Shown here: one piece after another, positions 36,186 through 59,034 of the stretch
Numbering within the stretch: the stretch's first letter is position 1
Layout of the letters: each line of letters begins with the position of its first letter
Source: an uncultured Sphingomonadaceae bacterium
Lineage (GTDB): Bacteria; Pseudomonadota; Alphaproteobacteria; Sphingomonadales; Sphingomonadaceae
Direction of reading: 5' to 3'
NCBI GenBank assembly: GCA_947501325.1
Contig: CANMVC010000001.1
Location: 1,364,001 to 1,428,000, forward strand
DNA: 64,000 nt
Position numbers and translations under genes: made by a program
The notes under the pieces: generated by a model
Told to the model about the DNA's origin: nothing
Database searches by the model: none
What the model saw: the letters and a program-made list of their open reading frames with translations, nothing else

Positions 36186-36205
36186 ATTTAATGGCCCAGT
36201 TAAAT
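36186..36205. promoter_or_regulatory. Shared palindrome, copy 1 (upstream of TonB receptor 1)
   Basis: ATTTAATGGCCCAGTTAAAT, a 20-base inverted repeat, lies 117 bases before the receptor ATG and within the spacer shared with the divergent DUF3604 cassette. The same half-site recurs at 39013, 43425 and 59015. Confidence 0.6.
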
Positions 36206-36302
36206 GACTTATGCAAGCGTAGCTGCAGCAGATAAGACCATTCCCCACCAACCCCACCCAAAATGGCGACGCTGTGGTTACATTCAACTGGAGAGAATGA
36301 TT

Positions 36303-38783
36303 ATGAAGAGTATGAATCGCGTCCTCATGGCGGCTCTGTGCAGCACTGCCCCTATCGCCGCAATCACCCCCGTTCATGCGCAGGATCAGGGTGCCGACGA
36401 CACAGTCGACGATAATATCATCATCGTGACGGCGACCCGCCGGGCACAGGATGTGCAGGATATTCCGCTCGCTGTGACGGCGGTCAGTCCAGTTCAGCTG
36501 GAACGGCAAGGCGTGGTCAACGTCCAGGATATCACACAGGTTTCATCAAGCTTTTCAACCTCAAACGCCCAGGCGGCGTCGGGCAGCGTCGTGCTGCAAA
36601 TCAGGGGCGTCGGCACGACATCCAACAATATCGGTTTTGAAAGCGCCGTCGGCATTTTCATTGACGGCGTTTATCAGTCCCGCCCCGGCATTGCCCTTTC
36701 CGAATTTGTCGATGTGGAACGGGTGGAAGTCCTGCGCGGACCGCAGGGCACATTGTTTGGGCGCAATACCTCTGCCGGGGCGTTGACGATCACCAATGTG
36801 CGGCCTGATGTCAGTGAGTTTGGCGGTTTCGTGAACGCAACCTATGGCAATTATGACCTGATCAATGTGCAGGGTGCGATTAACGTCCCGATTGTTCAGG
36901 ATACTCTGGCGCTGCGCCTGACCGGTGCCTATCGTGAGCGCGATGGCTTTATCGATGTGGTTGATGAAACCGGCAAAATTGGCGAGTCCAACGAGAAAGA
37001 CCAATATCTTATCCGCGGTCAGCTCGGCTATGAAGGTGATAGCGGCCTGACCGTGCGGGTGATTGGTGATTTTTCGAAGAGCACTGCCAATTGCTGTTCG
37101 GCGGTGGAATTGCTGGCATCGCCGCTCGAAACAGCAGGCTTGTTTGAGGCGGTTGGCCTTGGGCCCCGTGGCGGACAGTTCCAGCCAAACACCGGCCAGG
37201 AAGCGGCCGATGACCGCATCGCGTCGGCCAATTTTGCGCCTCGTGGCGACCTCGAACAATGGGGCGTTACGGCAGAGGTGGAACATCCGATCAGCGACAG
37301 CGCCGACATCATCTATATCGGCTCCTATCGGGAGTTTGACAGTTTAGAAAGGTACGACTCCGATTTCACCGCGCTGGATATTTTCGATGTCGATCGGGCA
37401 CGGGCCAATATCAACACTATGACCCATGAACTGCGGGTGCAGGGTGAGGCGTTTGACGGCGCGCTCAACTGGCTCGTCGGTGGCTATTATTCCGACGAGG
37501 ATATCAAGCAGGATGTCAGCTTCTCACTCGGTGAAGACTATGACGCGCTGGTCGGCGCGCTGTTGCAAGGGGCGCTGGGCGCCAATCCGCTGGAGCAATT
37601 GTCCGGCGGTGTTGATCCTTCTGTAGTGACCGCGACCAACAGCTATACGCAAAACAGCAAAAGCTGGTCGCTTTTCACCCATAACACGCTGGAAGTGATT
37701 GACGGTTTGAAATTGACTGTTGGTTTGCGCTACTCGGATGAGAGCAAGGATGGTGGTTTTGAACAAACCGCAAGCAACAATCCGCTTTGCACCAGTATCC
37801 GCGCGGCGTTTATCAACAACCCGGCCGCCGTACCTCCGGCCGCCGTGTCCTTGGGATGCTTTGCCTTTCTTGCTCCGGCGACCGGATCAGATGCGACGGA
37901 TGCAGAAATTCCATTCGCCTTTCTGCCGCGTCCCTTTGAAGGCGAGTTTAACGACAGCGAGCTTATCTACACCGGCAAGATCGCTTATGAATTTGCCGCA
38001 CCGGTGAATATCTATGCGAGCTTCACCCACGGTTATAAATCCGGTGGCTTCAACCTCGACTCAACCGCGGCGGCCGGAGGCGGCGACCCGCGTTTCGATT
38101 CCGAAGAGGTTGATGCCTATGAGGTGGGCTTGAAAGCCAAGTTTCTCGATAATCGCGTCACTTTGAATGTTGCGGGTTTCCATGAGGAATTTACCAATTT
38201 CCAAATTCTTGAATTTACCGGCGCCCAGTTCCAGACGTTCAACGTCCCCAAAGCGAAAACCACGGGCGTCGAAATTGAAACCGTCATTCGTCCGGATGAC
38301 AATTTCACCCTGAACGCCGGCCTTACTTATACGGATGCACGCTATCCCAATGACTGCGCCGGTGATTTGACCGATAATCAGGTTCTCAACCTGTGCGGCG
38401 CCTCGCTCACCAACGCGCCAGACATTGTTGCCATTGCGGGCGCGACCTGGGAAAAGGATATCGGCAATAATCTCGATTTCTTCCTGAACGGGCAAATTCG
38501 CATGGAAAGTGACCGCCGGACATCGACTCAGCCATCTAACCCCAATGATCTCGATGATCAGACACCGCTTCCCTTCGATATTCAGGACGGAAACACGAAA
38601 ATCAACTTGCGCGCCGGCATCGGCAGTCAGGATGATGTCTGGGGCATAGAGGCGTGGGTCAATAACCTGACCAATGAAGTCACCCGCGGGGTGACCTTTA
38701 ACACCGTCCTGCGGTCTGGGTCCCGGTCAGCCTATCTGCAGGAACCTCGCACATTTGGTGTTACGCTGCGCGGAAAATTCTAA
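36303..38783 (+). CDS. TonB-dependent receptor 1
   Basis: 826 residues. A signal peptide ends near AITPVHAQ, followed by a TonB-box-like start to the plug (DNIIIVTATRRAQDVQDIPL). The plug has RGVGTTSNN and VEVLRGPQGTLFGRNTSAGA, and the 22-strand barrel ends in VTLRGKF with terminal Phe. This type imports scarce nutrients across the outer membrane using TonB energy; no siderophore-specific feature is visible, and the proteobacterial class with VTATRRAQ boxes often handles carbon compounds. GGAGAG stands seven bases before the ATG at 36303. It is about three-quarters identical by eye to the next gene. Confidence 0.93.
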   Translation: MKSMNRVLMAALCSTAPIAAITPVHAQDQGADDTVDDNIIIVTATRRAQDVQDIPLAVTAVSPVQLERQGVVNVQDITQVSSSFSTSNAQAASGSVVLQIRGVGTTSNNIGFESAVGIFIDGVYQSRPGIALSEFVDVERVEVLRGPQGTLFGRNTSAGALTITNVRPDVSEFGGFVNATYGNYDLINVQGAINVPIVQDTLALRLTGAYRERDGFIDVVDETGKIGESNEKDQYLIRGQLGYEGDSGLTVRVIGDFSKSTANCCSAVELLASPLETAGLFEAVGLGPRGGQFQPNTGQEAADDRIASANFAPRGDLEQWGVTAEVEHPISDSADIIYIGSYREFDSLERYDSDFTALDIFDVDRARANINTMTHELRVQGEAFDGALNWLVGGYYSDEDIKQDVSFSLGEDYDALVGALLQGALGANPLEQLSGGVDPSVVTATNSYTQNSKSWSLFTHNTLEVIDGLKLTVGLRYSDESKDGGFEQTASNNPLCTSIRAAFINNPAAVPPAAVSLGCFAFLAPATGSDATDAEIPFAFLPRPFEGEFNDSELIYTGKIAYEFAAPVNIYASFTHGYKSGGFNLDSTAAAGGGDPRFDSEEVDAYEVGLKAKFLDNRVTLNVAGFHEEFTNFQILEFTGAQFQTFNVPKAKTTGVEIETVIRPDDNFTLNAGLTYTDARYPNDCAGDLTDNQVLNLCGASLTNAPDIVAIAGATWEKDIGNNLDFFLNGQIRMESDRRTSTQPSNPNDLDDQTPLPFDIQDGNTKINLRAGIGSQDDVWGIEAWVNNLTNEVTRGVTFNTVLRSGSRSAYLQEPRTFGVTLRGKF

Positions 38784-38821
38784 AACTATAGTGGTTTAGG
38801 GGGCATTTCGTCAGCATGATT

Positions 38822-38847
38822 GGGGCCGGTCTTCCGGCCCCTTTTTT
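38822..38847 (+). terminator. Rho-independent terminator of TonB receptor 1
   Basis: A perfect eight-pair stem, GGGGCCGG-TCTT-CCGGCCCC, is followed by six T. It lies about 40 bases after the stop codon, so each receptor is probably transcribed separately. Confidence 0.9.
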
Positions 38848-39012
38848 GTGCCACCATCCTTTTTGGTACACGTCAGATAGTGTATCGATAGCATCATATA
38901 TACCACAAATTGTGTTTATGGCCTCCCATGAATCGCAGATTTACGCTGTTTTCAATGTAACATTTTTACCACGGCTGGCCATATTCTGCACAGATATGCG
39001 CATATCCTCTTG

Positions 39013-39032
39013 ATTTAACGGTCCGATTAATC
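39013..39032. promoter_or_regulatory. Shared palindrome, copy 2 (upstream of TonB receptor 2)
   Basis: ATTTAACGGTCCGATTAATC keeps the copy-1 spacing and lies 119 bases before the receptor ATG, almost the same distance as copy 1. Confidence 0.55.
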
Positions 39033-39131
39033 GACCTAGGCCGATGAAACCAATGCAATGAGATCATTATCCTTCCCCAAATTACAGGGACAAATGACAA
39101 GCGGCGGCAAGTTCAACGGGAGAGAATGTTT

Positions 39132-41714
39132 ATGAAAAGTTTGAATCGCGTCTTTATGGCAGCACTGTGTACCAGTGCCATGACCGCCCCCGCCTACGCA
39201 CAAGATGCCGGTGCTGAAGAGGTTGATGACAATGTCATCATCGTGACCGCCACCCGCCGTGCCCAAGATGTCCAGGATATTCCGCTTGCTGTGACGGCCG
39301 TTAGCCCAGTCCAGCTGGAGCAACAGGGCGTCGTTAATGTTCAAAATATCGGAAGCGTATCCCCAAGCTTCTCGACCTCTAATGCGCAAACCGCATCGGG
39401 AACCGTCGTTCTTCGTATTCGCGGCGTTGGTACAACTTCCAATAATATCGGCTTTGAATCAGCCGTCGGCATCTTCGTGGACGGTGCTTACCAGTCCCGT
39501 CCAGGTGTTGCACTTGGCGAGTTTGTCGATGTGGAACGTGTCGAGGTTCTGCGTGGCCCACAAGGCACATTGTTCGGACGCAACACATCAGCGGGCGCAC
39601 TGAACATCACCAACAAGCGCCCTGACCTTGATGAATTTGGCGGTTTTGTGAATGCAACATATGGCAATTTTGACCATATGAGCGTGCAAGGCGCGATCAA
39701 CGCTCCAATTATTGAGGATACATTGGCACTGCGCGTAACCGGTGCGTATCGGAAACGTGACGGCTTTGTGGATATTATCGACAGCGCAGGAAACAGTGTT
39801 GGCGATTCTAACGACACAGATCAGTATCTCGTTCGTGGCCAACTTGGTTACGAAAGCGATGGCGGCATTCAGGCGCGTTTGATCGTGGACTATTCAAAGA
39901 GCACGGCAAGTTGTTGTGCGGCTGTAGAGGTCCTTCAATCCGGAATTGAAACAGCAGGTCTCTTTGGCGCGGTCGGCCTTGGCGCACGTGGCGGCATGGC
40001 TGCTCCCGACGTTGCGTTGACCCCGTTTGATACCACGGCAGCGCAACAGGCTGTGGACAATCGCATCGCCACCTCTGATCTGAGAGCCGATCCTTCCAAC
40101 GATCAATGGGGCATTACTGGCGAGATCGAATTTCCGATCGGTGACAGTGCTGACCTGATTTACATCGGTTCATACCGCGAATTCCGGGCAGAAGAAGCTT
40201 ATGATTCGGATTTCTCAGGCCTTGATATCTTCAACGTCCTGCCCGGCAGCGATACAGCCATCGACACAATGACCCATGAACTTCGTCTGCAAGGCGAAGC
40301 CTTTGGTGGTGCACTCGACTGGTTGGTTGGTGCTTATTATTCTGATGAAGATATCACTCAGTCCACCAACTTCGGTCTGGGCCAGGATTATGACCGTCTT
40401 GTCGGCGCTCTTTTGGCAGCTGGTACGGGCGGCGCGACGCTGAACCCGGCTAGCCCACTTTTCGCCGGCGCAACACCACTGCAAACATTGACTGGTATCG
40501 ATCCTGCAACGGTTCGGACCACCAATGCTTATACACAAAGCAGCAAAAGCTGGTCGGTGTTCACGCACAACACGCTGGAAGTTGCTCAAGGACTTAAACT
40601 GACACTTGGTCTGCGCTATTCAGATGAAAGCAAAGACGGTTCATTCAGCCAGCCGGCGATCAGCAACGATCTCTGCCCCGCAACGCTGGGTCAGATTTTT
40701 GCTGGTGGTCTCCCAGGTGGTGCTGGTAGTCCTCTGACCAACAGCTACTTTGGACTGGGTTGTTTTGCGTTTGTCGCGCCAGCAATCGGAACAGATGCAA
40801 ACCCGTTCCCACTGCCGCGGCCTTTCGTCAGCGAATTTAGCGATGAAGAACTGATCTATACCGGTAAAGTGAGCTATGAATTTGCCGATCCTGTAACCGT
40901 TTATGCCAGCTTTACGCATGGTTATAAATCCGGTGGTTTCAACCTCGATTCCACGGCAGCATCCGGCGGCGCTGATCCGCGCTTTGCTTCGGAAGAAGTC
41001 GATGCGTATGAAGTTGGTCTGAAAGCCAAATTCCTCGATAACGCTGTGACCTTGAATGTTGCAGGTTTCCATGAGGAATTTACAGACTTCCAGGTTCTGG
41101 AATTCACTGGCGCTCAGTTCACCACGTTTAATGTTCCAAGTGCGAAATCAACCGGTATTGAAATTGAGACAGTCATTCGTCCGGATGACAATTTCACAAT
41201 CAACGGCGGTCTGACTTACACCGATGCAAGATATCCAAGTGACTGTGCCGGTACGCAAACCGACTCTGCCAATGTGGTAAGTCTTTGCGGCAATTCGCTA
41301 ACCAACGCTCCGAAATGGGTTGGTATCATGGGTGCGACTTATGATCGTGACCTTGGCGACAGCCTGAAGTTCTTCCTCAATGGTCAGCTGCGCATGGAAA
41401 GCGATCGTCGGACTTCAACTCAAGCCACTACGGTCCCTAGTGCTGCACAAATTGCAGCAGCTGGGAGCGTTCAGGCAGCAGTTGATGCAGCTCCGCTCGT
41501 TCCATTCGATGTTCAGGATGGCACAATCAAAATCAACATGCGGGCTGGTATCGGTGATATCGATGACGCATGGGGCATCGAGGCTTGGGTTACAAACCTG
41601 ACCAATGAAGTGACCCGCGGGGTGACCTTTAATACGGTGCTGCGCTCTGGCTCTCGGTCAGCGTTCATCCAGGAACCACGCATGTTTGGTGTGACCCTTC
41701 GCGGCAAGTTCTAA
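39132..41714 (+). CDS. TonB-dependent receptor 2
   Basis: 860 residues, paralogous to receptor 1 along its whole length, including plug motifs VEVLRGPQGTLFGRNTSAGA and the VTLRGKF end. It is about 34 residues longer, mainly from insertions near residues 300-320, 430-460 and 755-775, likely extracellular loops. Its leader (GGGAGAGAATGTTT before ATG 39132) matches that of receptor 1. Third-position choice looks different by eye, with more CGT and CTT codons, suggesting stronger expression or a different history. Substrate is unknown; the pair may take up related but different molecules. Confidence 0.93.
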   Translation: MKSLNRVFMAALCTSAMTAPAYAQDAGAEEVDDNVIIVTATRRAQDVQDIPLAVTAVSPVQLEQQGVVNVQNIGSVSPSFSTSNAQTASGTVVLRIRGVGTTSNNIGFESAVGIFVDGAYQSRPGVALGEFVDVERVEVLRGPQGTLFGRNTSAGALNITNKRPDLDEFGGFVNATYGNFDHMSVQGAINAPIIEDTLALRVTGAYRKRDGFVDIIDSAGNSVGDSNDTDQYLVRGQLGYESDGGIQARLIVDYSKSTASCCAAVEVLQSGIETAGLFGAVGLGARGGMAAPDVALTPFDTTAAQQAVDNRIATSDLRADPSNDQWGITGEIEFPIGDSADLIYIGSYREFRAEEAYDSDFSGLDIFNVLPGSDTAIDTMTHELRLQGEAFGGALDWLVGAYYSDEDITQSTNFGLGQDYDRLVGALLAAGTGGATLNPASPLFAGATPLQTLTGIDPATVRTTNAYTQSSKSWSVFTHNTLEVAQGLKLTLGLRYSDESKDGSFSQPAISNDLCPATLGQIFAGGLPGGAGSPLTNSYFGLGCFAFVAPAIGTDANPFPLPRPFVSEFSDEELIYTGKVSYEFADPVTVYASFTHGYKSGGFNLDSTAASGGADPRFASEEVDAYEVGLKAKFLDNAVTLNVAGFHEEFTDFQVLEFTGAQFTTFNVPSAKSTGIEIETVIRPDDNFTINGGLTYTDARYPSDCAGTQTDSANVVSLCGNSLTNAPKWVGIMGATYDRDLGDSLKFFLNGQLRMESDRRTSTQATTVPSAAQIAAAGSVQAAVDAAPLVPFDVQDGTIKINMRAGIGDIDDAWGIEAWVTNLTNEVTRGVTFNTVLRSGSRSAFIQEPRMFGVTLRGKF

Positions 41715-41753
41715 GGTTTAAATATTTGGGGGGCATTTCGTCACCACCAAGAA

Positions 41754-41782
41754 GGGGCCGGTTTTTCCGGCCCCTTTTTTTT
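41754..41782 (+). terminator. Rho-independent terminator of TonB receptor 2
   Basis: GGGGCCGG-TTTTT-CCGGCCCC is followed by eight T, the same stem as after receptor 1. A matching GGGGGCATTTCGTCA lies just upstream at 41729-41743. Confidence 0.92.
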
Positions 41783-41836
41783 GCCCCCCAATCAATGCCG
41801 GTTGCGCGCACGCATGATCGGTGCAAAAGTCCGGCC

Positions 41837-42997
41837 ATGAACAGCTATAGTTTTCAAACCGTGCCGGTCCTGCATTTTGGCGAGGGTTGCCTTGCGATGC
41901 TGGCCGATCAAATCGCCGCCCTGGGCGGGACCCGACCGCTGATCGTTACCGACAAAGGCATTATCGCCGCGGGCCTGATTGCCCCGGTCGAACAGGCGTT
42001 ATCCAACGCGGGTTTATCCGCACAGATATATGATGCGGTCATTGCTGATCCACCCGAAGCTGTGGTGCAGCAAGCCATTGATATGGCGAAAGCGGCTGCG
42101 GTCGATATCGTCATTGGTCTGGGCGGCGGCAGTTCGCTGGACACCTCCAAGGTGGTCGCCGCGCTGGCGATAGATGGCGCGCAAGGTCTTTCCGAAATCT
42201 ATGGTGTCGGCCAATTGGCGCGCAAAGGCCGTCCGACCATATTAATCCCGACGACATCGGGAACGGGCTCCGAAGTCACCGCTATTTCGATCCTGACCAC
42301 GGGCGAGACGACGAAGGCGGGCATTGTGTCCCCGCATCTCTTTGCCGATGCTGCGATCCTGGACCCTGCATTGACGCTGGGCCTGCCCGCTGACGTCACC
42401 GCGGCCACGGGTATCGATGCGATGGTTCATGCGATCGAGGCCTACACTGGCCGCCATGCGAAAAACCCGCTGTCCGATATGCTGGCGATAGAGGCGCTGA
42501 AACTGCTCACCGCCCATATCGAAACCGCCTGTTCGGACGGCACCAATATGGTGGCACGCGAAGCCATGCTGCGTGGCTCGATGCTCGCCGGGCAGGCTTT
42601 TGCAAATTCTCCGGTTGGCGCGATCCATGCGCTCGCTTATCCGCTTGGCGGGATTTATCATATCCCGCACGGCCTCTCCAATGCGCTGGTGATGCCGCAT
42701 ATCATGCAGTTTAATCTCGACGCAGCGGCGCCGCTTTATGCAGAATTGGCTGATGCTTTGGATGTGCCGAAAACCGGTCCCAATAGTGCCGAAGCCCGCG
42801 CGCAGGAATTGATCGACTATCTTGAAGGCCTGGCCGTAAAGGTAAAAGCGCCCCGCCGCTTGCGCGAAGTCGGAATAGCCGAAGATGCGGTGGATGCGCT
42901 GGCTGAGGCTGCCATGTTGCAGACCAGACTGCTCGTCAACAATCCCAAAGAGCTGGACCTCGCCGACGCCAAACGGATCTATGCCGATGCCTGGTAA
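41837..42997 (+). CDS. Iron-containing (group III) alcohol dehydrogenase
   Basis: A 386-residue NAD(P)-dependent dehydrogenase of the Fe-ADH family. The cofactor motif GGGSSLDTSK lies near residue 99 and PTTSGTGSE near 138. The metal ligands lie in DAMVHAIEAY near 195, AIHALAYPLGG near 262 and HIPHGLSNALVMPH near 275. The start is the ATG at 41837 because the conserved N-terminus begins there; its ribosome site is weak. The thioesterase gene overlaps its end. Family members oxidise or reduce short alcohols and aldehydes; context with an acyl-CoA dehydrogenase suggests catabolism of an alcohol-derived acid. Confidence 0.93.
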   Translation: MNSYSFQTVPVLHFGEGCLAMLADQIAALGGTRPLIVTDKGIIAAGLIAPVEQALSNAGLSAQIYDAVIADPPEAVVQQAIDMAKAAAVDIVIGLGGGSSLDTSKVVAALAIDGAQGLSEIYGVGQLARKGRPTILIPTTSGTGSEVTAISILTTGETTKAGIVSPHLFADAAILDPALTLGLPADVTAATGIDAMVHAIEAYTGRHAKNPLSDMLAIEALKLLTAHIETACSDGTNMVAREAMLRGSMLAGQAFANSPVGAIHALAYPLGGIYHIPHGLSNALVMPHIMQFNLDAAAPLYAELADALDVPKTGPNSAEARAQELIDYLEGLAVKVKAPRRLREVGIAEDAVDALAEAAMLQTRLLVNNPKELDLADAKRIYADAW

Positions 42998-43430
42998 AGA
43001 GCGCACCCCGCCGCCAATGTGGGATGATTATCGCGATGGCTCATCGATCACCACGCGCTGGAACGACAATGATCCCTATGGTCACGTCAATAATGCGGTC
43101 TATTATTTCTGGTTTGATAGTGCGGTGAACCGCTATCTGATCGAGCAGGGCGCGCTCGACATTGAAAAGAGCGATGTCATCGGGTTGGTGGTCCAGACGT
43201 CTTGCGAATATTTTGCTCCTATCGCCTTTCCCGATCTGGTCGAGGCGCGCATCCGGGTCGAGAAGCTCGGCCGGACCAGCGTGACCTATGGTGTGGGCCT
43301 GTTTCGGGGTGAAGAAAAAACCGCATCGGCGGCGGGCAGCTTCACCCATGTCTATGTGGATCGGGAGAGCCGGCGGCCGACACCCCTGTCCGCGCCCTTG
43401 CGTTCTGCGCTGGAATTGATAACCCTTTAA
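42987..43430 (+). CDS. Hot-dog fold acyl-CoA thioesterase
   Basis: About 147 residues of the 4-hydroxybenzoyl-CoA thioesterase-like group. TRWNDNDPYGHVNNAVYYFWFD is the signature, with the catalytic Asp in the NDPYGHVNN turn. It probably hydrolyses an acyl-CoA in the cytoplasm. The start is unsure: ATG 42987, 42981 and 43017 are all in frame. The first two overlap the dehydrogenase stop and imply coupling. Its stop codon lies within the palindrome that precedes the acyl-CoA dehydrogenase. Confidence 0.85.
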   Translation: MPGKERTPPPMWDDYRDGSSITTRWNDNDPYGHVNNAVYYFWFDSAVNRYLIEQGALDIEKSDVIGLVVQTSCEYFAPIAFPDLVEARIRVEKLGRTSVTYGVGLFRGEEKTASAAGSFTHVYVDRESRRPTPLSAPLRSALELITL

Positions 43431-43444
43431 CTGAGCAGTTAAAG
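43425..43444. promoter_or_regulatory. Shared palindrome, copy 3 (upstream of acyl-CoA dehydrogenase)
   Basis: CTTTAACTGAGCAGTTAAAG is palindromic except for the central two bases. It covers the thioesterase stop codon and part of the AAAGGA ribosome site of the next gene, whose ATG is at 43455. Its half-site matches the other three copies. Confidence 0.5.
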
Positions 43445-43454
43445 GACCAGGACC

Positions 43455-44597
43455 ATGCGCCACGCCGAGGATACCGAAGAACGCCAGCAATTTCGGGAAA
43501 TGACCCGGCGTTTTATCGAAACCGAGTTGCAGCCTCATGCCAATGCGTGGGACGAAGCGGGAGAAATTCCGTGGGAGGTCCATCAAAAAGTGGGCGCGCT
43601 GGGCACCTGGGGCTTTGGTGTGGCCGAGCAATATGGCGGTCTTGGTTTTGACGATATGTATATGCGCTGCATCTGGGGCGAAGAGGCGGCCCGGGCCCAT
43701 AATGGCGGCACGTTGGCGGCACTGGGCGGGCGCAGCATCTCCATTGGGCCGATCGAGAAACTGGCGTCTCAGGAGATCAAGGACCGTATTCTCAAGGACA
43801 TCGTCCAAGGGCGGGTCGGTTCCAGTCTCGGCGTGACGGAGCCCGGCGGCGGCTCCGATGTAGCCAATATGAAAACAACCGCGCGGCAAGACGGCAATCA
43901 CTGGATCATCAACGGGTCCAAGACATTCATTACGGGTGGTATGACTTCCGACTATTTTGTCGTCGGTGCGCGAACCGGTGGGGAGGGGCTGAACGGAATT
44001 TCCCTCTTTCTGGTCGAGAAGGATATGGAGGGTTTTTCCCGCACCGCGCTCGACAAGAAAATGGGCTGGTGGGCGTCGGATCAGGCTACTTTATATTTCG
44101 ATGATGTCCGGGTTCCGGCAGGGAATATGCTGGGTGATGAAGGGCGTGGCTTCATTCAGATCATGCATAATTTCAACTATGAACGGCTCGGCATGGTCGC
44201 CCAGTGCCTTGGCATGATGCGGGTATTGCTGGAGGAATCCATCGCTTATGCGCAGCAACGCGAAACCTTCGGCAAACCGCTCAGCCAGCATCAGGTGATC
44301 CGCCACAAAATCGCGGAAATGTCGGCCCGTGTCGATGCGACCGAGGCGTGGGTGAACCAGATTTGTTTTCTGACGGAATATGGCCAGATGCCGGTCGATC
44401 AAATCTGCAAAGCCAAGTTTTTCAGCACCAAGAATCTCGAATATTGTGCCAGCGAAGCCATGCAAATCTGGGGCGGGGCCGCCTATTTGCGCGGCAATGT
44501 CGTGGAGCGTTTTTACCGCGAGGTGAAAGTCATGGCGATTGGCGGTGGGTCAGAGGAGATCATGCGTGATCTGGCGGTGCGGCAAATGGGGCTTTAA
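43455..44597 (+). CDS. Acyl-CoA dehydrogenase
   Basis: A 380-residue FAD enzyme introducing the alpha-beta double bond into an acyl-CoA. LGVTEPGGGSDVANMKTTA is the FAD/substrate signature near residue 125, INGSKTFITGG follows, and MQIWGGAAYLRGNVVERFYREVK and GGSEEIMRDL are the C-terminal blocks. Substrate length cannot be told. It follows the alcohol dehydrogenase and thioesterase genes, which together could carry an alcohol through aldehyde and acid to beta-oxidation, though no aldehyde dehydrogenase or CoA ligase is present locally. Confidence 0.93.
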   Translation: MRHAEDTEERQQFREMTRRFIETELQPHANAWDEAGEIPWEVHQKVGALGTWGFGVAEQYGGLGFDDMYMRCIWGEEAARAHNGGTLAALGGRSISIGPIEKLASQEIKDRILKDIVQGRVGSSLGVTEPGGGSDVANMKTTARQDGNHWIINGSKTFITGGMTSDYFVVGARTGGEGLNGISLFLVEKDMEGFSRTALDKKMGWWASDQATLYFDDVRVPAGNMLGDEGRGFIQIMHNFNYERLGMVAQCLGMMRVLLEESIAYAQQRETFGKPLSQHQVIRHKIAEMSARVDATEAWVNQICFLTEYGQMPVDQICKAKFFSTKNLEYCASEAMQIWGGAAYLRGNVVERFYREVKVMAIGGGSEEIMRDLAVRQMGL

Positions 44598-44625
44598 CTG
44601 CCCTGTCAATAGGTCTAACCCCATT

Positions 44626-44697
44626 CCGTTAACCCCGAGCCTGTCGAAGGGTGTTTCGCAATCGATAGACGTCCTTCGACAGGCTCAGGACTAACGG
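44626..44697. repeat. Palindromic repeat (VRAEPVEA type) before the DMT transporter gene
   Basis: Arms CCGTT..GAGCCTGTCGAAGG and CCTTCGACAGGCTCAGGACTAACGG are inverted over about 72 bases. The left arm has diverged, so this is an older or degenerate copy. It fills the gap between the acyl-CoA dehydrogenase and transporter genes. Confidence 0.75.
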
Positions 44698-44706
44698 GAA
44701 TTGGTT

Positions 44707-45630: not shown

Positions 45631-45631
45631 T

Positions 45632-46798
45632 ATGGCGCTGCGGATCAGAAACCGTGATGCGCGGCGCTTATGGCTGGATCGCCAGGGTCTGGCTCGCGCG
45701 CCGACCGGACCGCTTGACCTGTTAGAGGTCATCACGGATTTGGGATTTGTCCAACTCGATACCATCCGCAACGTGACCCGCGCTCATCATCACATCTTGT
45801 GGAGCCGTAACCAGAATTACCGCGAGCCGATGTTGAACGACTTGCTGGCCAAAGAGCGAGCGGTATTTGAACATTTCACCCATGATGCGTCGGTCTTGCC
45901 GATGGCGTTTTATCCCCTCTGGCAGCGCCAGTTTCGGCGGCTTGGCGCACGTGCCGGTAAGCATAAAGCCATGGATGCGAAGGATGTCGCGGCGATCAAG
46001 GCGCGCATATCCGTTGAAGGACCCCTATCGACCCATGCGTTCGATACCAAGATCGTCGGCAAAAAAGAAATGTGGGCCCGTCCCCCGCACAAACGCGCTC
46101 TGGATCAGCTGTGGTATGCCGGAGAACTGACAACCTCTCACCGCGAGAAATTTATCAAATATTACGATCTGACAGAAAGGGTCGTCCCGCCCCAATATCA
46201 GAACATGACGCATAGCGACGAGCATCAGATGGATTGGCTGTGCAAAGCTGCTCTCGATCGGCTGGGCTTCGCGACATTGGGAGAGATTCAGAGATTTTGG
46301 GCGGCATTGGACGCGCGCGAAGTCAAAACATGGGCCGACGCCGCGTCGGACCATTGGGTTCCGGTTGAACTGGAAACGGTGAATGGTGACTGGATCAACA
46401 TGGTCGCTCCGCCTGATATTGAAATGCTGTTGGAGAAGGCCTGCGCGCCGACATCGCGGCTGCGGATATTAAGCCCCTTTGACCCGGCTGTTCGAGATCG
46501 CACACGGCTCTCTCGACTCTTTGGCTTTGACTATCGCATCGAGATTTTCGTGCCCGCGGCCAAGCGCCGCTGGGGCTATTATGTCTATCCGCTGCTCGAG
46601 CGCGACCGGTTCGTCGGCCGTATCGAACTAAAGGCCGATCGCAAGGCGGGAATTGTGAAGGTCATTCAAATATGGCCTGAGCCGGGCGTCAAATGGACCG
46701 CGGATCGCGCAGAGAAACTCGACGCCGAACTGGGCCGTTTGGCGCGACTTATTGGCGCTGCGGTTGTGGAATGGGAATGCGGTCGTCCAGGCCTCTAG
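45632..46798 (+). CDS. YcaQ/AlkX-type DNA interstrand crosslink glycosylase
   Basis: A 388-residue HTH_42 family (tandem winged-helix) protein. GFVQLDTIRNV at residues 39-49 contains the Q-hydrophobic-D active-site motif (Gln41-Leu-Asp43) that marks the YcaQ branch, against QxQ in AlkZ. YcaQ removes alkylated bases, including both sides of nitrogen-mustard crosslinks. Other family blocks are HAFDTKIVGKKEMWARPPHK and LRILSPFDPAVRDRTRLSRLFGFDYRIE. It follows the DMT transporter gene by one base. Confidence 0.9.
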   Translation: MALRIRNRDARRLWLDRQGLARAPTGPLDLLEVITDLGFVQLDTIRNVTRAHHHILWSRNQNYREPMLNDLLAKERAVFEHFTHDASVLPMAFYPLWQRQFRRLGARAGKHKAMDAKDVAAIKARISVEGPLSTHAFDTKIVGKKEMWARPPHKRALDQLWYAGELTTSHREKFIKYYDLTERVVPPQYQNMTHSDEHQMDWLCKAALDRLGFATLGEIQRFWAALDAREVKTWADAASDHWVPVELETVNGDWINMVAPPDIEMLLEKACAPTSRLRILSPFDPAVRDRTRLSRLFGFDYRIEIFVPAAKRRWGYYVYPLLERDRFVGRIELKADRKAGIVKVIQIWPEPGVKWTADRAEKLDAELGRLARLIGAAVVEWECGRPGL

Positions 46799-46807
46799 GT
46801 GCAGAGG

Positions 46808-47374: not shown

Positions 47375-47615
47375 GATCTTATATTCCCACTTGATTTAGA
47401 GCCCGATACGCAGGGCTATTCTCATTACCAAGCAAATATGAGCGAGCTTGGTTAACAACTGGTTAAAATAGCCAGCTTTATGCCCATCACCATGCTCCCA
47501 ATGGATGAGCTTATGACCATGATTTTTGTCCGATTATCTTTCTATTTCAAACATCTACCGGAAACATGGCCAAATTCATTGGCTTCCGACAATCGGAGGG
47601 TCTAGAGAATTGGTT

Positions 47616-52700: not shown

Positions 52701-53956
52701 CAGCCGATGCCTTGTGGCGGCTCACGGGAGTGGAAACATTTGATTTGACTGGCCCGGTAAACCTGAGTGCCGATGTGCGGGGAACTTTGGCCAATCCGCA
52801 GATCAACGGGCAAATGCGAACAAACAATGCCCGCCTGGAAAGCGGCCTCACCGGAACTGTGATTTCCGGGATCAAGGCACAGGGCCAATTTGACGGATCG
52901 CGATTGGTGCTGCCCAATATCACAGGCTCTACCAGGGGTGGCGGATCGATCAGCGGCAGCGGCAGTTTCAACTTTGCGGTCGGTCCCGGCGAAGGCGTTG
53001 GCATCATGCTTGACATGAATGCCCAGAAAGCACGTCTGATCGCGCGTGACGACTTTGCCGCGACAGTGACCGGACCGATCCAGATACGCAGCTCTGCGGA
53101 CGGTGGGCTCATATCGGGCGACCTCGTTCTGAACCGCAGTTTTTTCCAGTTCGGCAATGCCAGTGAAACCGTCGCGCTGCCGAAAATTAAGATCACCGAA
53201 ATTAATCGCCGCGCCGATGAACGCCCGGCTGTCATCCGCAGCCGGCCGTGGCGTTTTGCGCTTAATGCCGAGGCACCGGACCGGCTGCAGGTAAAGGGAC
53301 TGGGCCTCGACAGTGAATGGCGCGCCAGTTTGAAAGTATCTGGCCCCGTTGATAATTTCGCAATGACCGGCAGCGCGGATCTGGTTCGAGGCAATTACAC
53401 ATTTGCTGGTCGGCGGTTTCAGCTCGAACGCGGTCGAATCCGCTTTGTGGGCAATCAGCCGCCTAACCCGATATTGGATATTGAAGCCGAAGCCAATCTG
53501 ACCGGCCTCAATGCCACAATCAACGTGACCGGTCGCGGTAACAGTCCGGAAATCGCCTTTAACAGCGTGCCAGCCCTGCCAGAAGATGAATTGCTATCCC
53601 GCGTCCTGTTCGGAGCATCCATATCCGATTTGTCTGCACCAGAGGCGGTGCAATTGGCCGCCGCCGTCGCGTCGCTTAATAGCGGCGGCGGACTTGACCC
53701 GATCAACCAGCTGCGCAAGGCTGTTGGCCTCGACCGGCTGCGCATTCTGCCATCCGATGTTGACAGCGGCCAAGGCACGTCTATTGCTGCGGGCAAATAT
53801 ATCACCCGCCGCGCTTATGTAGAGCTCATCACGGATGGCAAAGGCTATAGCGCGACCACTCTGGAATTCCAGATCACCCGCTGGCTCTCGATATTATCGA
53901 GCATCTCCACCATCGGGCGGCAAAATGTGAATGTGCAGGTGTCGAAGGATTATTGA
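49778..53956 (+). CDS. tamB: TamB-like translocation and assembly module protein
   Basis: A 1392-residue AsmA-like lipid-bridge protein. One N-terminal membrane helix (LLLTVFAGLLVLIAVALAAG) anchors it in the inner membrane. A long beta-taco region of repeated strands follows, and the C-terminal TamB domain (DUF490; IRFVGNQPPNPILDIEAEAN, then PALPEDELLSRVLFG) meets TamA. The start shares a base with the tamA stop, so synthesis is coupled. The length is at the usual upper range for the family. Confidence 0.93.
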   Translation: MDDEQPDRDIQPVKRRRVRRLLLTVFAGLLVLIAVALAAGAYWLDSDSGHKFIIREIEALEPDDGLRIRMQAIEGSIYDEMEIVDLTLADPKGVFFRAGSVTVDWNPLAWIFNELNISDAVIAKARLERLPELIDTQKDTPLLPDFDIYLGAFRADNLALAKAVVGEEQRADLAGAADIRSGRVMINLDAATTRSGDKITLNLNAEPDREKLDLDAEIIAPATGIIARQLSLPRDYVITLGGEGDWEKWDGDLLVASADELLAELTLEARDGLFGYDGNIEAGLLPSGLVSKMGAPRLAVNGTASVEDRLVQLDTTARSRAVSLTAKGGIDLARNAFDAMRIEFDVRDPSALATNMKAQDLELKALLNGKFSELRYQYLLTAPQLAIGKSLLTGVRAAGEGRRDTAGFDIPVELSVATLIGNGDLLKQLLSGFNGKALLRLEDGRLFADNAAITTDSIRGTADIDASLATGDFMIALDAQASGFAMKGVGITDILADLEIGPGPAGISLDGTVKANLRRFDNAFLRELGGGLPVIKTGLALGADRKLRFPNLNITAPKLRFNGSGVQQTATIFEFSGRGAHDQYGEFDLDLNGPLARPEIAVLLDSPLPAAGLSAVRLDLDPAENGFAFTAAGGSTLGPFNGNGAIIAIAGQEARVRVDQLKLSDTLATGVIRPTAQGLAGTLAISGGGVNGNVLFEPGQNRQLIRANLKAQNARFDGTPPILIRTGALDADIVLVEGQSNIDVTVRAQGISRGELMVGRIAGNAKLVNGTGNATFSVAGTRGSTFNFQAQADVTPDRYVMTGDGLFEGRNLRLVQPLELRRISDGWSVSPTTLSYGRGRTRFSGQWGSGTSRLDMTLTNMPLSLADIVADGLGLGGEANGTIKLTQTGYQMPVGEAKLNIKGLTRSGLILTSIPIDLGLNIAISNRNAAARGIIQSQAKTIGRFQGRVTGFGGGNWKDELTRSPLFAQARFNGAADALWRLTGVETFDLTGPVNLSADVRGTLANPQINGQMRTNNARLESGLTGTVISGIKAQGQFDGSRLVLPNITGSTRGGGSISGSGSFNFAVGPGEGVGIMLDMNAQKARLIARDDFAATVTGPIQIRSSADGGLISGDLVLNRSFFQFGNASETVALPKIKITEINRRADERPAVIRSRPWRFALNAEAPDRLQVKGLGLDSEWRASLKVSGPVDNFAMTGSADLVRGNYTFAGRRFQLERGRIRFVGNQPPNPILDIEAEANLTGLNATINVTGRGNSPEIAFNSVPALPEDELLSRVLFGASISDLSAPEAVQLAAAVASLNSGGGLDPINQLRKAVGLDRLRILPSDVDSGQGTSIAAGKYITRRAYVELITDGKGYSATTLEFQITRWLSILSSISTIGRQNVNVQVSKDY

Positions 53957-53976
53957 GTTTCCGGGTTACGGAAAGA

Positions 53977-54606
53977 CTATCTGGATTGCGCTTGATCGAT
54001 CTGTTGCAGGAGCAAGTCACGAGCATGGGGATTGTGAAGAAGAATTTGTGGCGAGGTTCGGGGACCGCATAGAACGCGGAGAGTCTGTCCGTCTTCTTTG
54101 ATCTGGCCATTCACGTTCATAGGCTTTTTCTTTGAAGAATAGCGTGAGAGACCCTGCGCTGTATCGGTGTTCGCCTCAAGTGCGTGGGTTTTGCTCATCT
54201 TGTTCATGAACGCAGCACAATCAGGAAAACTGTGGTGGACCCAAGGCGCTTCGTTGGAATAAAGTCGCGCCGAAACAACAACAAGCCGGTCGATAAAAGG
54301 CATGAAGTTGACAAGTAAATGGCCCCGCTCGGTCTCGTAGCGAAGCTCGCTAGTCGTGTCATACAATCGAAACTTTTCGGGATTCATTTTTTTGGCGGAA
54401 ACCAGATCCTGGAAGGTCTGAGCATATTTTAACCCGTCGTCTTTGTCTTCTCCGGCTATGATATTGCCTCTGGCTCGCATCGCCGCGCGCACTTGGTCGG
54501 CAGTCATGTCGAGGCTGATCCCCTCGAGTTGAAGCAATTCGGGTTCTTTTGCCGCAGCAAAGCTACCGGAGAGTAATAGCGCTATTGCAGTGAAAAAGAC
54601 CGTCAT
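53977..54606 (-). CDS. Exported protein of unknown function
   Basis: About 209 residues with a signal peptide (VFFTAIALLLSGSFAAAKEP). The mature part begins LLQLEGISLDMTADQVRAAM, like small exported proteins in which a short domain senses a ligand. It has two cysteines (FPDCAAF and VLCGPR) that may pair in the periplasm. I recognise no named family. GAGG lies nine bases before the ATG at 54606; starts at 54618 and 54648 are possible. It converges with tamB. Confidence 0.65.
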   Translation of the reverse strand: MTVFFTAIALLLSGSFAAAKEPELLQLEGISLDMTADQVRAAMRARGNIIAGEDKDDGLKYAQTFQDLVSAKKMNPEKFRLYDTTSELRYETERGHLLVNFMPFIDRLVVVSARLYSNEAPWVHHSFPDCAAFMNKMSKTHALEANTDTAQGLSRYSSKKKPMNVNGQIKEDGQTLRVLCGPRTSPQILLHNPHARDLLLQQIDQAQSR

Positions 54607-54695
54607 GTTCCGTCGCATCCTCACTACTCCCGCAATTCTCATACGCATGCGAAGCCTGTCGGGATGCTGAACCTGACGATTTCGGAGATGGACTT

Positions 54696-54735
54696 AAAAA
54701 AAACCCGGAGCAATCGCTTGCCCCGGGTTTTTAAA
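54696..54735 (-). terminator. Terminator of the glnB-glnA operon
   Basis: AAAAACCCGG and CCGGGTTTTT are inverted around 14 bases with A and T runs on both sides, so it can act in both directions. It lies 18 bases after the glnA stop. Confidence 0.85.
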
Positions 54736-54752
54736 TTCTACAGTCGCCTGCT

Positions 54753-56165
54753 TTAGGACGAATAATACATGTCAAATTCAACCGGGCTTGGTGTTGTTTC
54801 CAAACGGCTGACTTCTTCCCATTTCAGTTCGGCATAGGCGTCGATCTGATCTTTGGTGAACACATCGCCTTTGAGCAGGAATTCATGATCTGCTTCCAGC
54901 GCCTCGAGCGCTTCGCGGAGCGAACCACAAACGGTAGGCACATCAGCCAATTCTTCCGGTGGCAGGTCATAGAGGTTCTTGTCCATCGCGTCACCGGGAT
55001 GGATTTTATTCTCAATGCCATCAAGGCCAGCCATTAACAGCGCTGATGCACTGAGATACGGATTGGCCAGTGCATCCGGGAAACGGAATTCCACGCGCTT
55101 GGCTTTGTCGCCTGCACCGTACGGAATGCGGCAAGAGGCAGACCGGTTACGGCTGGAATAAGCCAGCAACACAGGCGCTTCAAAACCGGGAACCAAACGC
55201 TTGTAGCTATTGGTCGTGGCGTTGGTGAACGCGTTACACGCCTTGGCATGTTTAATAACGCCGCCAATATAATGCAGACACATTTCCGACAGACCAGCAT
55301 ATTCATTGCCCGCGAAAAGCGGTTTGCCGTCTTTCCAGATCGACATATGCGTGTGCATGCCGGAGCCGTTATCGTCCTTAATCGGTTTGGGCATGAAGGT
55401 CGCGGTTTTGCCATAGGCGTGAGCCACCTGCTGCACGACATATTTATAAACCTGCGTACGGTCAGCGGTTTCAACCAGCGTCCCAAAGGTAATGCCCAGC
55501 TCATGCTGCGCCGCGGCCACCTCGTGGTGGTGCTTGTCCATCGGCAGGCCCATTTCCATCATAGTGGCCACCATTTCACCGCGAATGTCGACGGCGCTAT
55601 CCACTGGCGCTACCGGGAAATAGCCGCCCTTGGCGCGGGGACGATGGCCCATATTGCCAATCTCATAGTCACGGCCAGTATTGGTTGGCAGCTCGACATC
55701 ATCCAGTTTGAACCCGGAACGGTCATAACCATCTTCAAATTTCACATCATCAAACATGAAAAATTCTGGTTCCGGTCCAACGTAAACCGTGTCGCCAATG
55801 CCGGTGGACTTTAGATAGGCCTCTGCCCGAACGGCGGTCGACCGTGGATCGCGTTTGTAAAGCGAGCCATCGCCGGGTTCCACAATGTTGCAGACCAGGA
55901 TCATCATAGGCGTGGCTGAAAACGGATCCATATAGACGGCATCGAGATCGGGACGCAGGATCATGTCGGATTCGTTAATCGCCTTCCAGCCTTCGATGGA
56001 CGAACCGTCAAACATGAAGCCTTCTTCGAGAACATCTTCGTCAATCACTTCGGCACACATGGACAGATGCTGCCATTTACCGCGCGGATCGGTGAACCGA
56101 ACATCGACCCACTCGATCTCATGTTCCTTGATCATTTTCATGACGTCTGCAGGTGTATTGCCCAT
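54753..56165 (-). CDS. glnA: Glutamine synthetase, type I
   Basis: 470 residues. Makes glutamine from glutamate, ammonia and ATP as a cytoplasmic dodecamer. Motifs are [26 protein letters not shown], the ATP block [16 protein letters not shown], and the adenylylation loop [10 protein letters not shown] near residue 398, whose Tyr is modified by GlnE. The length fits the GSI-beta form. It lies downstream of glnB, 84 bases away on the same strand, the classic glnB-glnA nitrogen operon. Confidence 0.97.
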
Positions 56166-56249
56166 TATTTTGTCCCTTGGTTTGTATTGAAATTTAAGTT
56201 TACTGGAATTTGAATATGAAACTGCACCGCCTTGTTTGAAGGCGCTGTC

Positions 56250-56708
<459 letters not shown>

Positions 56709-56810
56709 TTAAACTGCTAAAGCCAAACGATGACAGATTCAATGCCGCCCAAAAAACAGGCATTTTTAGGCGGTATAGCTTAAATTTTAGGCAGCCGCTC
56801 TTTACGCGGA

Positions 56811-58970
56811 CTAACGCGCAATCGGAGCGGTGTCCTCTGCAACATTGGCCTTCGTCCAGTTGGAACGGTCGATGACATAATGGCGAATGGCTTCCACTTC
56901 ACCCGTATCAAGCTGTGAGGCGAAGCTCACCATACCATGTTGTTTCAACGCGCCGCCGGTGATGATCGAAGCCCAGGCTTCCTCACTCGCCAAGGTGCCA
57001 GATATGCGCAGGTCAGGGGTAAAGCCGTTACCGACCGCGCTGTCGCCATGACAGACGAGGCAGTTGCGGCCATAAAGTGCCTTACCTTCGGCAATCTGCT
57101 CAGGTGTCCCGGTCGGCTCCGGTGGATCCCAGACGACTTCGCTTTTTTCTGGCAGCGCAGGTAGCTGTGTTTTCCCGCCGAGTTTCATGACCACCAGCCG
57201 GGGAATATTCGGCACTTGCCGTGACGCGCCACCCGCTACTCCAGCGACCAGCGGGAACGCCCCGCCTTTGCTGGTCAGAAACGCAATATATTGCTCTCCA
57301 TCAATCATGTAGGTTGATGGCGCGCCGACGATGCCAGACTGCATATCGAGGCTCAACAGCTCTTCTCCGCTATCAGCAGTATAGGCCTTGAACAGGCCAA
57401 CGCTGGTGCCTTGAAAAACCAAATTGCCAGCCGTTGTCATCGTGCCGCCATTCCAGGCCGCCGGATGATCGACAGACCAGGCGACTTTACCCGCTTTGGG
57501 GTCAAACGCGACGAGCTTGCCAGTGGTGGCCGCGATAGCAGCCTTGTAAATGGCCGGATCATCAGGCAGCTGACCAATGGCCCATGCAATCCCGACATTA
57601 AAGCCGAGCCGCTCGCGTTTCTTGTCAATGTCGGAAGTTGGTACATCATAGCCCTGCGGGATTTGCTGAGCGGGGATGTAAACCAGACCGCTTTTGGGAT
57701 TATAGCTCATCGGGTGCCAGTTATGCGCACCTAAAGCGCCGGGGATCGAAACAAAGGGCTTGCCCGTTTTATAGAAACGCGCTTCCGGATTTTCGATCGG
57801 ACGACCGGTTTCCAGATCATAGCCTTCGGCCCAGTTGATGCCGTCAACAAATGGCTCTGCGCTCATCAAACGCCCATTGGTGCGATCAATAACGAAGAAA
57901 AACCCGTTCTTGGGCGCATGGAAAAGCACTTTGCGCTTTTCCGTCAACGCAGAAGTCTCGCCCTCTTCAGTGCTGACCGGCCAATCGATTTCTGCGATTA
58001 TGATATGCTGGGTCGCCGTATAATCCCAGGTTTCTGCAGGCGTTTCCTGATAATGCCAGAGATATTTACCCGTGTCGGGGTTTACCGCAACAATCGAGGA
58101 AAGGAACAGATTGTCGCCCTCTCCGCCGGAGCGCAGGCCGTGATTCCAAGGGTTGCCATTACCAACGCCGAAATAAAGTTGATCGAGTTCTTCATCATAG
58201 ACGATGCTGTCCCAGACAGTACCGCCGCCGCCGGATTCTTTCCACTCGCCATCGCTCCAGGTTTTATTCGCAGCCTTGGCGAATATCTCGTCACTCGCCG
58301 CCCCGTCGGCTTTGCCTTCAGGATTGGGCACAGTGTAGAAACGCCATTTTTGGGAGCCGTCAGACACACTATATGCAGTCACATAGCCGCGAACACCAAA
58401 TTCCGCGCCGCCATTGCCGATGATGACCATATTTTTGACGACCCGCGGTGCGCCGGTAATCGTATAGGGTTTGCTATTGTCTGTAGTCTGGGTTTCCCAA
58501 AGCCGAGCACCGGTATTGGCATCCAGCGCGATCAGGCGGCCGTCAATGGTGCCGAAAAACAATTTGCCGCGGGATATGGCGACACCGCGATTGACGACAT
58601 CACAGCATGCATCAACAGCCTTGTCACCGGGTACTTCCGGATCATAGGACCACAGCTCTTCACCCGTCTTTGCATCATAAGCAAAAACTTTGGACCAGGC
58701 GGTCGAGATGTAGAGCTTGCCATCAACAACAATTGGTGTTGCTTCCTGACCGCGCGCGTCCGGCAAATCTTTAAACCAGGCTATACCCAGTTCGCCGACA
58801 TTGCTTTCGTTAATCTGGTCGAGGGGGCTGTGCCGCTGTTCCTTGGCGTTAAAGCCGATATTATTCCATTCAGCGTTGACGATCTCAGTCGATACGCTGT
58901 TCTCGTCAGCGGTCTGATTCTGGCAAGCGGCCAGCAAACATGTTGCAAAAAATAGTCCCAAACGACGCAT
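56811..58970 (-). CDS. PQQ-dependent alcohol dehydrogenase with cytochrome c domain
   Basis: 719 residues. A signal with lipobox LLAAC (Cys16) suggests a lipid-anchored periplasmic enzyme. An eight-bladed PQQ propeller follows, with the vicinal disulfide Cys122-Cys123 (DACCD) over the cofactor and the catalytic Asp in ETWDYTATQ. A C-terminal cytochrome c has CLVCH (637-641) and a likely Met680 ligand. This is the type II quinohemoprotein layout, oxidising alcohols and passing electrons to the respiratory chain. WDYT, not WDxD, argues for calcium rather than a lanthanide. GGGAG precedes the ATG at 58970, and a shared palindrome lies 45 bases upstream of it. Confidence 0.92.
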   Translation of the reverse strand: MRRLGLFFATCLLAACQNQTADENSVSTEIVNAEWNNIGFNAKEQRHSPLDQINESNVGELGIAWFKDLPDARGQEATPIVVDGKLYISTAWSKVFAYDAKTGEELWSYDPEVPGDKAVDACCDVVNRGVAISRGKLFFGTIDGRLIALDANTGARLWETQTTDNSKPYTITGAPRVVKNMVIIGNGGAEFGVRGYVTAYSVSDGSQKWRFYTVPNPEGKADGAASDEIFAKAANKTWSDGEWKESGGGGTVWDSIVYDEELDQLYFGVGNGNPWNHGLRSGGEGDNLFLSSIVAVNPDTGKYLWHYQETPAETWDYTATQHIIIAEIDWPVSTEEGETSALTEKRKVLFHAPKNGFFFVIDRTNGRLMSAEPFVDGINWAEGYDLETGRPIENPEARFYKTGKPFVSIPGALGAHNWHPMSYNPKSGLVYIPAQQIPQGYDVPTSDIDKKRERLGFNVGIAWAIGQLPDDPAIYKAAIAATTGKLVAFDPKAGKVAWSVDHPAAWNGGTMTTAGNLVFQGTSVGLFKAYTADSGEELLSLDMQSGIVGAPSTYMIDGEQYIAFLTSKGGAFPLVAGVAGGASRQVPNIPRLVVMKLGGKTQLPALPEKSEVVWDPPEPTGTPEQIAEGKALYGRNCLVCHGDSAVGNGFTPDLRISGTLASEEAWASIITGGALKQHGMVSFASQLDTGEVEAIRHYVIDRSNWTKANVAEDTAPIAR

Positions 58971-59014
58971 CGTCACTTCTCCCGAGCCGGCTTGACCTTC
59001 ATGGGTTCCACCTG

Positions 59015-59034
59015 ATTTAACTGACTAGCTAAAT
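59015..59034. promoter_or_regulatory. Shared palindrome, copy 4 (upstream of PQQ dehydrogenase)
   Basis: ATTTAACTGACTAGCTAAAT is palindromic at 16 of 20 positions and has the same ATTTA-N10-TAAAT frame as copy 1. It lies in the 94-base spacer between map and the dehydrogenase gene, about 45 bases before the latter's ATG. Confidence 0.6.

Follow-up and report, generated by a model that had tools for sequence, protein, structure and literature searches.

Genes and palindromic sites at the locus

The window analysed here is a 64-kb stretch (64,000 nucleotides) from the 3.58-Mb genome of an uncultured Sphingomonadaceae bacterium, referred to below as G000. It carries two genes for TonB-dependent receptors, tandem paralogues with 68% identity, and behind them in the same direction genes for an iron-containing alcohol dehydrogenase, a thioesterase and an acyl-CoA dehydrogenase (ACAD). 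A PQQ-dependent alcohol dehydrogenase with a C-terminal cytochrome c domain (PF13442) is encoded further along on the opposite strand (Table 1). The first-pass annotation of this DNA had described four palindromic sites upstream of these genes and assigned them a common centre. All four are present and align on one centre as copies of an 18-bp palindrome, TTTAAYYGNNCRRTTAAA, in an 8-2-8 layout. A divergent gene for a DUF3604 protein starts 156 bp from site 1, and site 3 lies 11 bp 5′ of the ACAD start and overlaps the thioesterase stop codon.

Table 1. Coordinates of genes and operator sites, in window numbering unless stated otherwise
Feature	Position	Strand	Remarks
DUF3604 protein	34123..36030	-	Pfam PF12228; divergent from site 1
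Operator site 1	36187-36204	.	TTTAATGGCCCAGTTAAA; 5′ of TonB receptor 1
TonB-dependent receptor 1	36303..38783	+	PF00593/PF07715; start set by eye at ATGAAGAGTATG
Operator site 2	39014-39031	.	TTTAACGGTCCGATTAAT; 5′ of TonB receptor 2
TonB-dependent receptor 2	39132..41714	+	paralogue of receptor 1; start set by eye
Iron-containing alcohol dehydrogenase	41837..42997	+	PF00465; start set by eye
4HBT-type thioesterase	42936..43430	+	PF03061/PF13279; start set by eye
Operator site 3	43426-43443	.	TTTAACTGAGCAGTTAAA; perfect palindrome
Acyl-CoA dehydrogenase (ACAD)	43455..44597	+	PF00441/PF02770/PF02771
PQQ-dependent methanol/ethanol-type alcohol dehydrogenase	56811..58976	-	TIGR03075, 627.8 bits (cut-off 480)
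Operator site 4	59016-59033	.	TTTAACTGACTAGCTAAA; 39 bp 5′ of PQQ dehydrogenase start
tetR (candidate repressor)	G000:C1:1430392-1431063 (~66392-67063 in window coordinates)	-	2.4 kb past window end

The four-site observation was confirmed by several scorings of the 64-kb window. A plain match to TTTAACTG halves returned three of the sites as its top three and the site at 39014 as sixth. Matrix (i), built from 91 distinct sites that all come from genomes other than G000, ranked the four first to fourth (25.7, 20.2, 17.1 and 15.2, with the fifth match at 4.5), and is not wholly independent because the first matrix, used to choose its sites, had learned from G000 sites among which were the four. 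The same ranks were given by matrix (ii), trained on 20 G000 sites without the four (23.6 to 16.6; fifth, 10.1). Matrix (iii) used no prior motif and was made from the most symmetric 18-mer 5′ of thiolase at 69 loci (31 distinct, some plainly non-operator); it placed the four at ranks 1, 2, 3 and 6. When the window was shuffled 300 times with dinucleotides preserved and scored with matrix (i), matches of at least 15.2 averaged 0.07 per shuffle; 19 of the 300 shuffles had one or more, none had four, and the top shuffle score was 20.05. By these counts the weaker sites are not significant singly and the set of four is. The upstream regions of the two tandem paralogous receptors align as homologous promoters, and sites 1 and 2 count as one event. 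The earlier argument that random recurrence is unlikely stands for the set as judged against shuffles, with the correction that this pair are duplicates.

Sites in the genome of origin

Pattern searches of G000, each with a backward-motif control, gave no excess for TTTAACTGNNCAGTTAAA with 3 mismatches (17 against 17 backward), and 25 against 10 for TTTAATCGNNCGATTAAA. With a shorter core and 1 mismatch allowed, G000 had 26 matches against 10, and G089, a genome of the same genus, had 33 against 1. Matrix scoring above 15 found 30 sites, a count that covers the stretches fetched around pattern matches rather than a whole-genome matrix scan and excludes the match at C3:46801 and lower scorers; the matrix behind it was trained partly on G000 sites, matrices (i) and (ii) being the less dependent tests. 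The gene calls rest on a simple longest-ORF rule, and some are false. Just 5′ of genes lie 28 of the 30 sites: a called start is at most 260 bp away for 26, and two more (L042 and L049) were reassigned from intragenic to upstream once a later start codon was taken. The two weakest of the 30 are intragenic. This placement bears out the proposal that one operator is common to a regulon, and the possibility raised earlier, that a genome scan might find no enrichment upstream of genes, did not materialize.

Genes for ACADs, thiolases, CoA-transferases, enoyl-CoA hydratases (ECH), a CoA ligase or TonB receptors stand behind 17 of the 28 upstream sites, and several beta-oxidation operons share the operator. 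The Pfam tally of the targets, taken without two divergent neighbours (in L023 and L052), comprises seven acyl-CoA dehydrogenases, two thiolases, two CoA-transferases III, two enoyl-CoA hydratases, an AMP-dependent CoA ligase, a propionyl-CoA carboxylase-type carboxyltransferase and two nitronate monooxygenase-like proteins. It also holds an aldehyde dehydrogenase, an FMO-like monooxygenase, an SDR, an aldo-keto reductase, an alpha/beta hydrolase, an amidohydrolase, a metallo-beta-lactamase-fold protein, a molybdopterin oxidoreductase, three TonB receptors, DUF3604 and the PQQ dehydrogenase. Poorer fits are an AIRS-domain protein, whose site overlaps the first bases of its longest reading frame, and an FMN reductase. 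Nine sites are gathered in the 55 kb between window site 1 and C1:1455176. The core cluster encodes a P450 closest to 3tkt and P450-terp, with an aldehyde dehydrogenase and a FadD4-like ligase alongside. An alkylsulfatase gene was seen nearby. The pathway proposed in the first-pass annotation, which would import and degrade one alcohol or lipid, is not supported in that form; the targets reach wider and suggest a general programme of acyl-CoA (fatty or branched acyl) catabolism, to which uptake and alcohol/aldehyde oxidation are joined.

The candidate regulator

The gene order beyond the window end is operator, thiolase, SDR, ECH, TetR, with a strong site at the head, the TetR gene last and the ECH reading frame seen between SDR and TetR. 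Operons in which an operator is followed by thiolase, SDR, often ECH, and TetR were read in seven genomes (G000, G060, G132, G087, G131, G059 and G095), false ORF calls having masked the thiolase in G059 and the middle genes in G095. No site above 11.8 lies within about 1.5 kb of any of the 16 TetR genes in G000; the link there runs via the operon head and was recognised from the gene order in relatives. The check proposed earlier, for a TetR-family gene preceded by a site, comes out positive for the operon, which a site heads, and negative for the TetR genes of G000 themselves, which have no strong site directly before them.

In the G000 protein, TetR_N (PF00440) scores 24.7 bits, barely over the cut-off of 24, and is unlisted at E 1e-5; the C-terminal domain matches TetR_C_9 (E 1.3e-49), and the recognition-helix region, SALVKYYFGNK, is identical in 7 orthologues. 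The predicted structure has 9 helices, is all-helical (pLDDT 86.8) and has 2qtq as its best match. As modelled, an N-terminal HTH and an all-helical fold with a putative ligand-binding C-terminal domain place the candidate in the TetR family. The nearest solved structure is that of Saro_1072 from Novosphingobium aromaticivorans (2qtq and 2rha; 2ras is Saro_0558), which we take as the orthologue (phmmer E 7.6e-79; Foldseek 60-62% identity, TM 0.81-0.86). Likeness to the fold of Bacillus FadR, which binds acyl-CoA, is weak (TM 0.62-0.68), behind EthR2 and RutR. We considered orthology to PsrA and to FadR and rejected both, as the NCBIfam PsrA model gave 23.6 bits (cut-off 300) and the FadR model 22.6 bits (cut-off 200); the match to 2fbq, which we take to be PsrA, has an E of 0.0056.

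Regulator and sites across relatives

Of 149 family genomes, 15 have exact copies of TTTAAYYGNNCRRTTAAA, 2-7 per genome and 59 in total; the other 134 have none, and the exact backward motif is absent from all 149. The same kinds of gene recur in 40 stretches fetched from the motif-positive genomes. A protein search found a TetR orthologue (51-100% identity) in 15/15 motif-positive genomes against 2/134 of the others, six further genomes having 31-38% relatives only. Fisher's test gave p 9e-19 for this co-occurrence and, by genus (9/9 against 1/87), p 8e-12; both values are uncorrected for phylogeny and overstate independence because the genomes and genera are related. Together with the site-headed operon, this distribution upholds the original guess of a TetR-type regulator. 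The two exceptions, G069 and G138, belong to one genus (g70); in each, a single degenerate site (16.1 and 13.9) heads an SDR-TetR pair.

A collection of named relatives was also searched, 80 of 270 being kept: Sphingorhabdus, Parasphingorhabdus, Novosphingobium, two assemblies labelled Sphingopyxis and others named to family, order or phylum only. At least one site was found at 73 of the 80 loci (125 sites, against 7 with a backward matrix). Wherever a thiolase start and its upstream DNA were visible (69/69 loci), an operator lies 18-37 bp 5′ of the thiolase, and at four of the 80 loci (L175, L176, L177 and L202) a site stands directly 5′ of the TetR gene too. Seven loci have no site, four of them short (L172, L180, L184 and L219) and three full length (L211, L227 and L228). 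The last three, from Novosphingobium, have the TetR gene without the thiolase and without a site above 14, and a weak site (10.7) lies beside TetR in two of them.

Homologues of four query genes were surveyed at a threshold of 12, at best-match loci only, and sites precede 28 of 60 homologue rows from motif-positive genomes against 0 of 48 from others; the negatives include G069 and G138 (TetR present, exact site absent), with two rows and no site. In G089 the ACAD, the PQQ dehydrogenase and one TonB receptor have their sites, and the second receptor has none within 400 bp. The closest PQQ homologue has a site in G023, G137, G068, G095 and G001 as well as G089 (6/15 motif-positive rows), and the closest TonB homologue in G132, G068, G001, G095, G137 and G089 (6/11). 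The loss of the sites in close relatives, which had been named as grounds for abandoning the idea, is thus not what we see, and conservation reaches five further genomes for each of these two genes. Close ACAD homologues (at least 45% identity) have the site in G089 only (1/7); most ACAD rows at 33-36% identity represent paralogues. Receptors of matched identity differ, those at 73% and 71% (G005 and G002) lacking a site and those at 72% and 69% (G132 and G068) having one. At matched identity the site tracks the TetR gene rather than gene closeness, though some close homologues in motif-positive genomes have none. Altogether 32 of the 60 motif-positive rows have no site, including PQQ homologues at 69% (G108) and 68% (G087) and receptors at 70% (G089) and 61% (G060). 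Sixteen genes with at least 69% identity carry sites in G000 and G089 alike; no target was called for 5 of the 30 G089 sites, and the count leaves out one pair, a molybdopterin oxidoreductase at 26% identity.

Promoter layout

In a pool of 110 promoters, filtered at 75% identity, 37 have a TTGACA-like box 20-21 bp 5′ of the operator, against a mean of 0.6 per position elsewhere. Nearly all of these boxes come from TetR-operon loci and so speak for that operon and not for the whole regulon; the operator there would lie across the -10 region, as required of a repressor. The implied -35/-10 spacing of 14-15 bp is short. The four window sites have no such box, and a -10 overlap is accordingly not claimed for them. 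A single -35/-10 layout around all operators, which we considered, was rejected, the -35 being fixed in the TetR-operon loci and missing at the window's four sites.

Discussion

Regulators of fatty-acid breakdown are known in the gamma- and betaproteobacteria, and sphingomonads degrade oil, steroids and aromatics. A search of the open-licence literature found no described fatty-acid-breakdown regulator for sphingomonads, nor a functional study of Saro_1072 (searched by locus tag and by Pfam C-terminal domain). One crystallography-methods paper mentions 2rha and 2qtq, and a DAP-seq study of N. aromaticivorans covers 44 factors, Saro_1073 (the neighbour by number) included and Saro_1072 not (PMC12352068).

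We consider it very probable that a TetR-family repressor has the four sites as its operators and governs acyl-CoA catabolism genome-wide in this sphingomonad, which its relatives place in the Sphingorhabdus/Parasphingorhabdus group. A dimer of the candidate would bind the 18-bp palindrome over or beside the promoter and is predicted to block transcription, in its own operon as well. Genes kept silent in this way would be those for ACADs, thiolases, enoyl-CoA hydratases, CoA-transferases and the CoA ligase with the P450 and aldehyde dehydrogenase, and also those for the propionyl-CoA carboxylase-type subunit, the TonB receptors and the periplasmic PQQ alcohol dehydrogenase. By analogy with other TetR lipid regulators, an acyl-CoA intermediate may release the repressor. 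Repression rather than activation is assumed here, and both it and the acyl-CoA inducer are suggested by the protein family and the targets.

The readings that compete with this one differ in what they dispute. If the sites were chance AT-rich palindromes that happen to precede genes, the duplication behind sites 1 and 2, the 10 to 17 backward matches in G000 at loose thresholds and the 19 of 300 shuffles that reach the weakest site's score would all be expected; the top four ranks with a matrix trained without the four, the 59 exact sites against 0 controls in 149 genomes and the way in which sites before homologues track TetR have already refuted this, and we give it next to no weight. It is also improbable, if less so, that the operator belongs to another transcription factor of the same distribution and that TetR is a mere passenger in one operon. 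Such a passenger would explain why strong sites are missing directly 5′ of the TetR genes of G000 and why three loci hold TetR with a weak site at best, and a phyletic match cannot tell apart two co-inherited genes. Against this, TetR lies in an operator-headed operon in all seven positive genomes that were read, the thiolase is operator-headed at every testable locus, the genus g70 keeps the SDR-TetR pair with a site, and four loci have a site directly 5′ of TetR. The length and symmetry of the half-site fit a TetR dimer as well.

A third reading contests the breadth of the explanation that we prefer and not its regulator: the regulon might serve one substrate class (terpenoid, steroid or hydrocarbon), with a specific CoA thioester as inducer, as with KstR. 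We regard this as unlikely, though a good deal less so than a passenger TetR. The core cluster, with its P450 like 3tkt and P450-terp, its aldehyde dehydrogenase and its FadD4-like ligase, would suit such a role, as would the sites at FMO-like monooxygenase and CoA-transferase III genes and the alkylsulfatase nearby, whereas sites at the propionyl-CoA carboxylase-type subunit and at several ACADs, and at fadA-like thiolases in other genera, point to the general acyl-CoA catabolism favoured above.

The regulon is real and conserved and its TetR regulator strongly supported; the system is new in detail and of a kind already known. PsrA, FadP and Bacillus FadR are TetR regulators with many fatty-acid degradation genes per regulon, and PsrA, FadR and FadP regulons have been described in Proteobacteria, according to the excerpted text of PMC5343134; unlike them, the candidate has a regulon that takes in TonB receptors and a PQQ dehydrogenase. 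FadP, which the same excerpts give as unique to betaproteobacteria within that study, is set apart from the candidate by this description. In mycobacteria, KstR and KstR2 are likewise TetR repressors with large lipid-catabolism regulons (excerpts of PMC3068626 and PMC1995591); they belong to another phylum, and no KstR was among the profile and phmmer matches of the candidate. EdcR of Caenibius tardaugens, a TetR repressor from another sphingomonad, was considered as the regulator and rejected, since its operator as given in the excerpts of PMC8700777, TnnCnnTACnAnTnGTAnnGnnA, differs from the 18-bp motif. The same excerpts describe a local estradiol cluster for EdcR, and its C-terminal domain is TetR_C_11 against TetR_C_9 in the candidate.

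More tentatively, with the balance somewhat against it, one repressor may couple outer-membrane import to beta-oxidation: TonB receptors under an acyl-CoA-sensing TetR would replace FadL as importers of lipids or hydrocarbons, and the periplasmic PQQ dehydrogenase would feed alcohols in. A FadL/Toluene_X match is absent from 11 of the 15 motif-positive genomes, the window's own included; against such a replacement, it is absent too from 12 of 16 other genomes searched, and G089, of the same genus, has the regulon together with a FadL-family match. The analysis yields a named candidate protein whose structure is solved, together with a precisely defined operator and a list of about 28 target sites, and with these the TonB receptors and enzymes such as the DUF3604 and nitronate-monooxygenase-like proteins become testable as one catabolic programme.

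Genes associated with the predicted operator

The genes for TonB receptor 2, Fe-ADH, thioesterase and acyl-CoA dehydrogenase (ACAD) lie in the same strand direction with close spacing (window 39126-44597), and all four may be driven from predicted site 2, in which case site 3 would be an operator inside the run. An additional predicted site (score 18.4) is located 210 bp beyond the window end, at G000:C1:1428210 of the genome containing the window (window coordinate 64210), and a CoA-transferase III gene is downstream of it. Elsewhere in this genome, a ThiL-like (AIRS) gene has a site lying across its start (L019:5711). A whole-genome search for the FadL/Toluene_X family gave zero matches, despite which beta-oxidation genes are numerous.

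Locations of further genes
Feature	Position	Match
Alkylsulfatase	L016:14801-16765	PF14863/PF14864
Cytochrome P450	L016:7778-9112	very close to 3tkt, E 3.6e-195
AlkZ-like DNA glycosylase	window 45632-46798	PF06224

The P450 gene is flanked by two predicted operators; 3tkt is presumably CYP108D1 of N. aromaticivorans. Within the cluster of the candidate TetR regulator, the alkylsulfatase gene adjoins ECH and acyl-CoA dehydrogenase genes. Look-alikes, judged by eye with no domain scan, are close to sites in the same-genus genome G089 (L124) and in the motif-positive G068 (L125). The alkylsulfatase gene and these look-alikes hint at alkyl sulfates as one source of substrate.

TetR loci with weak or degenerate sites in relatives

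In two Novosphingobium loci (L211:7881 and L228:7873) TetR is present without the thiolase, and the sole site adjoining it is weak (10.7); at L211 a ThiL-like gene is divergent. Genus g70 retains just an SDR-TetR pair and a degenerate site (L357:7225, L358:8097), which is an ancestral or shrunken form of the regulon.
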